DNA from: a virus
Direction: 5' to 3' (one strand)
IMG/VR virus record: IMGVR_UViG_3300043331_000893
Coordinates: 1 to 36,785 of that record
Length of the DNA stretch: 36,785 bases
Shown here: one piece after another, positions 10,371-12,478 of the stretch
How positions within the stretch are numbered: the first letter of the stretch is position 1
How the letters are laid out: the number at the start of each line of letters is the position of its first letter
Notes under the pieces: model-generated
Seen by the model: only the letters and a program-made list of their open reading frames with translations
Database searches by the model: none
What the model was told of the DNA's origin: nothing
Program-made: the position numbers and the translations under genes

Positions 10371-11441
10371 ATGAAAACAAAACTGGCAATTGCGCTGCTT
10401 GCCGCACTGGCTGCGGGACCTGCGTTCGCCGCGGATGTGTACCATCACGACGGCGGGCTGAAGGATGATAGCCCCGGCTATTCGGGCGAGCGGCGAGCGG
10501 ACCATTCCGGTCTCTATATCACCGGCGACCTCGGCATCGCATCCGGCGACCGCAGCACCACCGTCAGGAACAATCGCGCCATCGATCTGGATGTGACCGA
10601 CCCGGCGTATACGGCTGTCCTGGACGGCGCGGACGGCTCAGCACCTAACGGCGTTATTTCCGATGCCGAACGGGAGGCTGCATCAGCGTTCCTGGACACG
10701 TTCAACGTCCCGCACACGATCACCGAAGACAGCCTCAACATTCCGCTGATTGCCGACCGGCTCGGAATCGGGAATGATAGTGATTTCGACGCGACCGCTT
10801 TCGGCGCGGAACTCAGCTATCTGTGGCAGCTTCCCGGCCGCCGTCTCGGCCTCGAGCTCGGCGTCGGCGCGACGTTCTATCAGAACAGCGAGACCGGCAT
10901 CGCTTACACCGGCCAGAACGGCGCATTCGTCGGCGGCACGGCTGCGGCAGACGCGGCAGTCGGCGGCGTCCCGCTCTGCACTGGCATCGGAACCTGCGCT
11001 GGCGATCCATCGATCCCGCAATCCGGATTCGCCAAGGTCGAGCGCAATTTCGACATCGACCTCATCGGTCGGCTGCATTATTTCGTCACTCGCGATCTGT
11101 CGCTGAGCGGCGGCGGCGGCATCTCGTTTGCGCGCGCCGACATATCCGGCGGCACGTTCGACGACACTGGCGCTTTCGGTGGGCTCAACACACGCTTCAG
11201 CGGCGACGAGTCCTCGATCGGCTACGTGCTCAACGCTGGCGTGAACTGGTGGGTTGCGGACTATATCCGTCTGTCGGCTGAGTACAGCTTCAAGCACCAC
11301 GAGTTCAGCGGCGGCGGCTCGGCAGCAGACAATCTCAATCTCGCCCCCGGCGTCGATCTCAACGGCTCTGCCAATACCAAGGTGGACGTTGAGGACGACA
11401 TCCACGCCATCAAGGGCCGGATCGGCATCATACTGAACTAA
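10371..11441 (+). CDS. Outer-membrane beta-barrel protein (Omp25-like), phage cargo
   Basis: This 356-residue protein has a classical signal peptide (basic MKTK, hydrophobic core, AFA cleavage site near residue 20) followed by a barrel with alternating strands. Examples are GLYITGDLGIASG, LGLELGVGATFY, FDIDLIGRLHYFVTRDL, IGYVLNAGVNWWVADYIRLSAEYSFKHH and a C-terminal strand ending IKGRIGIILN. This is the layout of alphaproteobacterial Omp25-like or porin-like surface proteins. AGAAGGGACA precedes the start. It stands alone between terminators, so it is probably transcribed independently, as is typical of lysogenic-conversion genes. A role in altering the host surface or blocking superinfection is inference. 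Confidence 0.85.
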   Translation: MKTKLAIALLAALAAGPAFAADVYHHDGGLKDDSPGYSGERRADHSGLYITGDLGIASGDRSTTVRNNRAIDLDVTDPAYTAVLDGADGSAPNGVISDAEREAASAFLDTFNVPHTITEDSLNIPLIADRLGIGNDSDFDATAFGAELSYLWQLPGRRLGLELGVGATFYQNSETGIAYTGQNGAFVGGTAAADAAVGGVPLCTGIGTCAGDPSIPQSGFAKVERNFDIDLIGRLHYFVTRDLSLSGGGGISFARADISGGTFDDTGAFGGLNTRFSGDESSIGYVLNAGVNWWVADYIRLSAEYSFKHHEFSGGGSAADNLNLAPGVDLNGSANTKVDVEDDIHAIKGRIGIILN

Positions 11442-11496
11442 GCGTTTTGACAGCCGGGAAAGACCGGCACCCTCTAGTGCCCATAGAAACTGACAC

Positions 11497-11526
11497 CCCG
11501 CGGAAGGCTGCCTTCCGCGGGTTTTT
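11497..11526 (+). terminator. Terminator of the outer-membrane protein gene
   Basis: A perfect 11-bp stem, CCCGCGGAAGG / CCTTCCGCGGG, with a 3-nt loop is followed by TTTTT. It lies 55 bases past the stop codon. Confidence 0.92.
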
Positions 11527-11532
11527 CATTGC

Positions 11533-11561
11533 TTGACGCCCGCACGAATCCGCGTCATAAA
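11533..11561 (+). promoter_or_regulatory. Sigma-70-type promoter for the candidate RNA
   Basis: TTGACG (11533-11538) and CATAAA (11556-11561) with a 17-base spacer (or TCATAA with 16) lie right after the preceding terminator. The predicted start is near 11567-11569. No ribosome site and ORF of reasonable length follow. Confidence 0.6.
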
Positions 11562-11566
11562 AGCGC

Positions 11567-11803
11567 AGGGATTCCGCTCATATTGAGCGAACGAGTTCTG
11601 ACGGCGGCGTCTTAAGCGGAAAGCAAGGAGGGCCTAGACTGCTTGCTGGATGTGACGCTAGCGGTGAAGTGGAGTAGAGCGCGGCCTAGAACCTGAAACG
11701 GACCGCGGCGAAGCTGGGGGATAGAGTCAGGGTGAACCCCCTGCCGTCAGGAGGCCATAAACAAACAACCCGCCGAGAGTGATCTCGGCGGGTTGTTTGC
11801 GTC
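11567..11803 (+). ncRNA. Candidate structured non-coding RNA, about 235 nt
   Basis: The stretch between a promoter and a perfect terminator has no credible ORF but many mutually compatible stems. CGCTCA/TGAGCG (11575-11580 with 11584-11589) forms a first hairpin. GGCGTC/GACGCT (11606-11611 with 11654-11659) encloses AGCAAG/CTTGCT (11622-11627 with 11642-11647). CGCGG/CCGCG (11680-11684 with 11703-11707) and CAGGG/CCCTG (11728-11732 with 11739-11743) follow. The octamer GGCCTAGA occurs twice, at 11631 and 11683, first in an apical loop. TTCCGC (11572-11577) could alternatively pair with GCGGAA (11616-11621), so two conformations are possible. I do not recognise a known RNA family. Confidence 0.6.
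11762..11803 (+). terminator. Strong terminator ending the candidate RNA
   Basis: A perfect 17-bp stem (11762-11778 with 11783-11799) closed by a GTGA tetraloop; the inner part is GC-rich (CCCGCCGAGA / TCTCGGCGGG) and the outer part is A-rich on the left and T-rich on the right (TTGTTTG). By symmetry it may work in both directions. Confidence 0.85.
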
Positions 11804-12094
11804 TATTCGGATAACGTAGGCCTCACAGGTCCGCCGCCTCATTGCTGGCCATATTCCCCGCACCAGCAATGTCCGGGACCAGCTAAAGTATTATATAATT
11901 AGGGTGAAATTGTCTGTCGCCTTTTGGCCACATTAACCCGTTCATCTATGGTTAATGCGTCGCGCTCAAAGGCCCCCGTCCGCCGACATCCGGGACCTGA
12001 AAGTGCCGGTCTCCCCGCTGACTGGACCGATAAATCGCAGGCATATGTTTGGGGGTCGTGCCGTTGTCCGGCGTTATAAGGCGCGACCCCTTAT
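11804..12094. other. Gene-free stretch between the RNA and the late operon end
   Basis: No credible gene. It contains a 9-bp inverted repeat CATTGCTGG / CCAGCAATG (11840-11848, 11863-11871), an AT-rich patch (11886-11905, including TATATAAT) and an 8-bp inverted repeat CATTAACC / GGTTAATG (11931-11938, 11950-11957). A GGGGTCG / CGACCCC stem (12052-12058, 12084-12090) followed by TTATTT abuts the stop of the minus-strand gene and may terminate rightward transcription. None of these has a clear function otherwise. Confidence 0.4.
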
Positions 12095-12478
12095 TTACCT
12101 TCGATCCGTCTTGCCATGCCTGTTCACGTCCGGCCGCAAGAGCGCAATCGGCGATTCCTCCCGCCCGCTCGGCAGCAGAAACGGATCGAAGCACCGCCAT
12201 TCCGAGCTCGCGTTCACCGCTTCCGTTTGCAGGCACCATTCGAACATATCGCGCCGATGCCAGCCCGGATAGCGATCACCCAGAATGCGGCTGCTGACGG
12301 AATCCACCTTGGTTTCAAGGGCGGCGATCCGGCCAAGGATGCCGATCCAGATCGCCGTGAACGTCCCGGCGACGCTGATCGCCGCCACGATGACGAGAAA
12401 GGCCTGGATCGCGGGTACGGAAAGGCGCGCCACAGAGACGCCGCCGCCATTGCTGTGTCCGTTGCCGTTCTCAGCCAT
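12095..12478 (-). CDS. Small single-TM protein of the lysis end
   Basis: A 127-residue protein with a Gly/Asn/Ser-rich N-terminal tail, one hydrophobic segment (about residues 24-47, AFLVIVAAISVAGTFTAIWI), a short coiled segment (RIAALETKVDSVSSRI) and a C-terminal part with RYPGWHRRDMFEWCLQTEAV. The layout resembles small phage membrane proteins found at the end of lysis cassettes, sometimes called holin-like, but one TM plus a long soluble tail does not prove holin function. It starts 8 bases inside the preceding gene and is the last gene of the late block. Confidence 0.75.
   Translation of the reverse strand: MAENGNGHSNGGGVSVARLSVPAIQAFLVIVAAISVAGTFTAIWIGILGRIAALETKVDSVSSRILGDRYPGWHRRDMFEWCLQTEAVNASSEWRCFDPFLLPSGREESPIALLRPDVNRHGKTDRR

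Follow-up and report, generated by a model that had tools for sequence, protein, structure and literature searches.

Gene surroundings of the untranslated interval

The window, by which we mean the whole stretch of DNA analysed, is one linear IMG/VR virus record of 36.8 kb and is possibly a fragment. Its head and tail genes are distant kin of those of the Roseobacter RDJL phages, the Rhizobium phages of the RHph_TM3 type and Pseudomonas phage KPP23, and the nearest relatives of its capsid show 49–61 % protein identity. The late genes lie on the - strand with the lysis genes at their end, at 12095, and a long untranslated interval separates them from the block of + strand genes (Table 1). The last product of the + strand block had no relative in Pfam, PHROGs, NCBIfam, the PDB, phages or plasmids, and its assignment to the outer membrane is based on a signal peptide and composition only. 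Neither ARAGORN nor Rfam found a tRNA or tmRNA gene in the window.

Table 1. Features of the untranslated interval and its flanking gene (positions in the window)
Feature	Position	Strand	Remarks
Secreted, outer-membrane-like protein gene (cargo gene)	10371–11441	+	356 aa; last gene of the + strand block
Whole untranslated interval	11442–12094		About 650 nt; flanked by the outer-membrane-like gene (+ strand) and the lysis genes (- strand)
Conserved RNA hairpin UGACA-GCCGG-GAAAGA-CCGGC	11448–11469	+	Lies 7 nt past the stop of the outer-membrane-like gene and 64 bases upstream of the promoter
Canonical intrinsic terminator after the outer-membrane-like gene	11497–11521	+	11-bp stem, 3-nt loop, TTTTT
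Candidate promoter TTGACG-N17-CATAAA	11533–11561	+	TTGACG 11533–11538, 17-nt spacer, CATAAA 11556–11561
Body of the putative small RNA	11568–11761	+	Purine-rich and lacking a credible ORF; start deduced from the promoter position
17-bp closing hairpin	11762–11799	+	Perfect stem 11762–11778/11783–11799, 4-nt loop; plausible terminator in either direction

The proposed RNA unit

The original prediction placed in 11533–11803 a structured RNA with its own promoter and a perfect terminator. We found the promoter as described, and only four sites on both strands of the window are as good. It is a 9-of-12 match located 7 nt past the T-tract of the upstream terminator, and we estimate post hoc that the chance of so good a promoter within 60 nt after that terminator is about 0.3 %. 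The strict promoter rule of our scan did not list 11533–11561. The region was also said to hold no credible ORF, and the longest + strand frame with an ATG, GTG or TTG start is indeed only 17 aa. Moreover, the + strand of the body is 60 % purine, a level reached at 0.3 % of window positions.

The features proposed inside the unit proved less exceptional. The octamer GGCCTAGA occurs twice (11631 and 11683), and we also located the nested stems GGCGTC (11606)/GACGCT (11654) around AGCAAG (11622)/CTTGCT (11642) and the alternative pairing of TTCCGCT (11572) with AGCGGAA (11615). However, an octamer repeat arises in 24 % of shuffles, inverted 6–8-mers are equally frequent in 10–14 % of them, and neither the nested stems nor the alternative pairing exceeds what chance would give. 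The body without the closing hairpin folds at a z of -1.7, a value equalled in 11 % of the 184 windows taken from this phage. Folding 11442–11803 as one piece gives a z of -5.7, largely owed to two terminator-like hairpins. As for the perfect terminator, the 17-bp stem is perfect and better than chance, but its T-rich tract lies inside the stem and is followed by CGTCTATTCG. The consensus terminator scan did not list 11762–11799, and the canonical terminator is the upstream one at 11497–11521.

The placement of the promoter, the lack of a credible ORF, the purine richness of the + strand and the 17-bp hairpin favour an autonomous small-RNA unit, and 11568–11799 is probably made as a discrete RNA.

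Searches for relatives of the unit

The original prediction recognised no known family for the RNA, and Rfam 15 likewise gave no match at the gathering score for the window or at a relaxed score for 11430–11960 and 11380–11600. A DNA similarity search with 11500–11810 returned nothing from phages or plasmids, and every match of three exact RNA patterns in IMG/VR was judged to be due to chance. Using the endolysin, the holin-like protein, tail fibre J and the outer-membrane-like protein as baits, we obtained no relatives, and the unit was not found in 49 related records. A covariance model built from the single sequence of the body produced no convincing hit either across 0.83 Mb, where the best one (E 0.14) lay inside a gene region, or in 29 whole records, where the best (E 0.09) was a 22-nt piece. 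The capsid search kept 80 viral loci and two genome loci, at most 61 % identical, and the RNA of 11533–11803 is absent from all of these. In the collections searched, which may lack the records closest to the window, we thus found no relatives for a covariation comparison of 11568–11758.

The nearest capsid relative from genome collections (61 %), together with related head and tail genes, lies on a 52-kb contig (L091 and L098–L100, JAKQEI010000250.1). It was assigned to a Bacteroidota MAG, probably by misbinning of a phage contig.

A hairpin shared by unrelated phages and plasmids

A search with a wider interval gave matches of 22–32 nt, all from 11440–11477, in phages sharing nothing else. 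Their shared core is TGACAGCCGGGAAAGACCGGCA (11448–11469), which corresponds to the hairpin in Table 1. With a 31-nt query we obtained 114 phage records at E up to 10; among these, we trust only near-complete matches of 95–100 %. An exact 22-nt match was found in phages of unrelated families, and the hosts include Pseudomonas, Stenotrophomonas, Cronobacter, Klebsiella, Acinetobacter, Synechococcus and Microcystis. The carriers include members of Schitoviridae (Pokken, Piffle, Paxi), Drexlerviridae (ESP2949-1, CS01), Hendrixvirinae (mEp390) and Dibbivirus, and further comprise Medea1, Cruim01, Klebsiella phage P7641, Acinetobacter phage Alexa, MinM2 and a Microcystis phage. The 22-nt sequence is matched exactly in E. 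coli prophages too, and plasmids from six genera (Tsukamurella, Serratia, Klebsiella, Pantoea, Acinetobacter and Phocaeicola) carry it as well. Most of the sites are unannotated and lie within long gaps. A pattern search of whole records located it at one place or in a small cluster per genome, with no hits in controls, and our covariance model R2 scored the window copy at 40 bits and the next best place in the window at 10 bits.

The hairpin matches no Rfam family, and the loci that bear it give only tRNA matches there. Full-text searches of the literature, mostly outside subscription journals, returned no earlier description. This widespread kind of hairpin is apparently uncurated.

To assess the pairing, we compared 18 distinct hairpin sequences. 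All 90 of the 90 cells were paired (100 %), double changes in the stem numbered 18 against 4.3 in shuffles and collapsed in every slid register, and the covariation was 0.70 against 0.17 when shuffled, figures that are inflated as some copies were chosen by a scan demanding pairing. Three compensatory copies (L234 946, L239 1813 and L241 1698) were found by sequence alone, and the compensatory stems so found are GCCCG/CGGGC, CCCCG/CGGGG and GATCG/CGATC; those from the scan requiring pairing are CCTCG/CGAGG, GACCG/CGGTC and TGCGG/CCGCA. The UGAC, the first GA of the loop and the closing G-C pair are invariant. Where a phage has a second copy, UGACA and the GAAAGA loop are preserved and the stem changes in pairs. 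The pairing pattern scan gave 30 sites in 70 kb of hairpin loci against 0.35 in shuffles, and its tightened form gave none in 2.16 Mb of other viral loci. The hairpin at 11448–11469 is almost certainly a real RNA element.

Three further ideas about the hairpin were rejected. A degenerate inverted copy near 12003–12024 and a 10-bp long-range complement between 11461–11470 and 12003–12012 received no support from the covariance model. A short peptide (MTAGKDRH) does not explain the conservation, as conservation extends to third codon positions and the reading frame is disrupted by loop insertions in Piffle and PB119.

Genomic context of the hairpin

The hairpin lies in untranslated stretches, in many phages at or close to their beginning, and often directly ahead of tRNA genes or structured RNA on the same strand. 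In three pairs of related phages, segments have been gained or lost at the 3′ edge of the hairpin. In several phages it follows a stop codon by 7–66 nt (7 nt in the window, about 30 in mEp390, 65 in ct7L0027), the distance being about 43 nt in the Pokken group and the Tsukamurella plasmid; in other carriers the gap from the preceding stop codon is 100–1100 nt. tRNA genes stand directly 3′ of it in L245, L246, L247, L248 and L254, and tRNA clusters follow it in Pokken, Piffle and PB119. In mEp390, ESP2949-1, Alexa, E. coli prophages and the Pantoea plasmid, the sequence 3′ of the hairpin is a strongly folded RNA of unknown kind. Two E. coli prophages carry two or three copies behind a repressor-like gene and on its strand, a place which we take to be the nutL or putL position of lambdoid phages. 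The hairpins of the window and of Acinetobacter phage Alexa have no gene after them on the same strand, unlike the leader positions seen in most others.

Several details of these loci deserve mention. The faecal phage scaffold MT835676.1 has a predicted tmRNA gene (L245 1495–1876) between two tRNA genes following the hairpin, and the Pantoea plasmid pPSP-26e has a predicted tRNA gene with the anticodon TTA, of suppressor type, 250 nt after it (L253 2771–2854). The lambdoid coliphage mEp390 (L232 1439–1521) and the myophage DIBBI (L246 1138–1221) share an 84-nt module, 94 % identical, that stops exactly at the hairpin.

A phage-encoded structured RNA, as first proposed for 11533–11803, is still the best reading of that region. 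The evidence from inside it is mostly at chance level, and the only demonstrably conserved RNA structure of the locus (11448–11469) falls outside it. The surroundings nevertheless strengthen the reading, because this covarying hairpin, found in phages at large, elsewhere precedes tRNA genes or structured untranslated RNA.

Comparison with known RNA elements

The put RNA of phage HK022 (putL/putR) is a cis-acting antiterminator of a lambdoid phage, about 70 nt long with two specific stem-loops, and it suppresses termination in cis by binding the beta' zinc-binding domain of RNA polymerase (PMC9378689). The window hairpin resembles put as a phage RNA hairpin element near an operon start, found in two E. 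coli prophages behind a repressor-like gene, but it is a single hairpin with a 5-bp stem, its conserved core being 22 nt, with an invariant UGAC and a GAAAGA-type loop. The hairpin is not HK022 put, because put is a 70-nt element with two stems and the HK022 genome (NC_002166) has no hairpin match on either strand. The sequence 3′ of the conserved 22 nt differs between phages.

Antitermination sites such as the lambda-type nut boxB and the boxBAC of rRNA likewise have a short hairpin, whose loop is of conserved purines and which precedes transcripts that have to escape Rho. The window hairpin shares the short stem and purine loop, but its loop has six bases and its flank is UGACA, in place of the boxB pentaloop and boxA. 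Moreover, we know of no partner protein for the UGACA hairpin. The likeness to phage tRNA and tmRNA clusters consists in the hairpin standing directly before or among such genes in several phages, although the window itself has neither gene.

Proposed function and alternative explanations

Most likely, the hairpin is a cis element attached to untranslated RNA cassettes. We tentatively consider 11442–12094 to be a phage RNA locus headed by this cis-acting hairpin, with a cargo RNA unit downstream, a reading that seems to us quite possible. By analogy with put or boxB-boxA elements, the hairpin would act in cis on the transcribing polymerase and sustain it through untranslated, Rho-exposed RNA. 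The unit 11533–11799, with its own promoter, a length of about 232 nt and the closing hairpin, would be the cargo RNA of this phage, small and stable. An effect on polymerase processivity is the simplest reading of the hairpin because it is placed after translation stops, where Rho would load, and is spread over host phyla. Antitermination rather than processing or recombination could be how it works, though we put this forward with reserve; transcript processing and recombination at the hairpin remain live alternatives. As the hairpin is separated from the unit by a terminator and by a promoter of the unit's own, the link between these two is one that we infer.

In a wider and more speculative reading, the UGACA hairpin might represent a new class of cis-acting RNA signal in phages of several host phyla, by which untranslated RNA genes (tRNAs, tmRNA and unknown structured RNAs) of phages and phage-like plasmids are transcribed through or processed. 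It might then serve as a bookmark for phage ncRNA genes, 11533–11799 being one of them. Many untranslated stretches in phage genomes have no explanation for their contents or expression; if the hairpin signals antitermination or processing, it would explain the expression of such regions and give a handle on undiscovered phage RNAs. The hairpin is almost unchanged in sequence between phages of Gammaproteobacteria, phages of cyanobacteria and an actinobacterial plasmid, so it probably meets a shared partner, which could be RNA polymerase, the ribosome or an RNase.

The unit might instead be a trans-acting small RNA, an accessory cargo carried beside the outer-membrane-protein gene that pairs with host mRNAs (e.g. 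of porins), with the hairpin being incidental. We regard this as unlikely, although a promoter and a closing hairpin directly behind an autonomous cargo gene would suit it and phage small RNAs of 50–300 nt are known, among them IpeX of prophage DLP12, which is made from the phage porin transcript and lowers OmpC (PMC12197685). Compared by description and without sequence, IpeX and the unit are both phage non-coding RNAs tied to an outer-membrane protein gene. However, IpeX is processed from the porin transcript, whereas the window unit has its own promoter and is parted from the gene by a strong terminator. Moreover, the neighbour is assigned to the outer membrane by signal peptide and composition only, and pairing of the unit with the phage's own genes was not beyond chance, the longest antisense match to the phage's own sequence being 12 nt. 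It is improbable that 11533–11799 is a plain spacer between the cargo gene and the lysis genes, holding a chance promoter-like sequence and a bidirectional late-operon terminator but no RNA gene. A body fold barely above shuffles and equalled in 11 % of phage windows, repeats and stems at chance level and the lack of conservation in the collections searched would all agree with a spacer, but three things argue against it: a promoter situated 7 nt past the upstream T-tract (post hoc chance about 0.3 %), the exceptional purine bias of the + strand and the perfect 17-bp hairpin where one is expected.

For the hairpin itself, the recombination alternative would make it a boundary in the DNA where cassettes of RNA genes are swapped, either site-specifically or between repeated copies, and not a transcription signal. 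This is suggested by three phage pairs in which one member has a segment (231, 337 or 195 nt) that the other lacks, beginning at most 10 nt from the 3′ end of the hairpin, and by the homology between mEp390 and DIBBI, which stops at the end of the hairpin. Nevertheless, such edges would be expected as well from recombination among repeats of a functional RNA element, no recombinase consistently adjoins the hairpin, and the covarying stem, the asymmetric conserved loop and the fixed orientation to the following RNA all speak against a DNA boundary. A mere DNA boundary thus appears quite unlikely to us, and the cis-acting RNA element remains our preferred reading of the hairpin.

Other untranslated elements

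We noticed an unannotated intergenic element in Rhizobium phages RHph_TM3_3_9 (L102 12656–12940) and RHph_Y5A (L228 2517–2800), which is 88.5 % identical between these two phage clades. It starts with a promoter-like TTGAC, lacks a credible ORF over about 230 nt and has a strong terminator, and its GGACTAGAGACGG ... GATAGTCC resembles a group I intron core, with no such Rfam match listed. We considered the RHph_TM3_3_9 copy as a positional analogue of the unit and rejected it, as its similarity to the unit is at chance level, being equalled in 40–55 of 300 shuffles, and its fold is unremarkable. Within the untranslated interval of the window, the part at 11840–12000 contains the unexplained inverted repeats CATTGCTGG/CCAGCAATG and CATTAACC/GGTTAATG flanking an AT-rich stretch, around which TCCGGGACC is also repeated, at 11872 and 11989.
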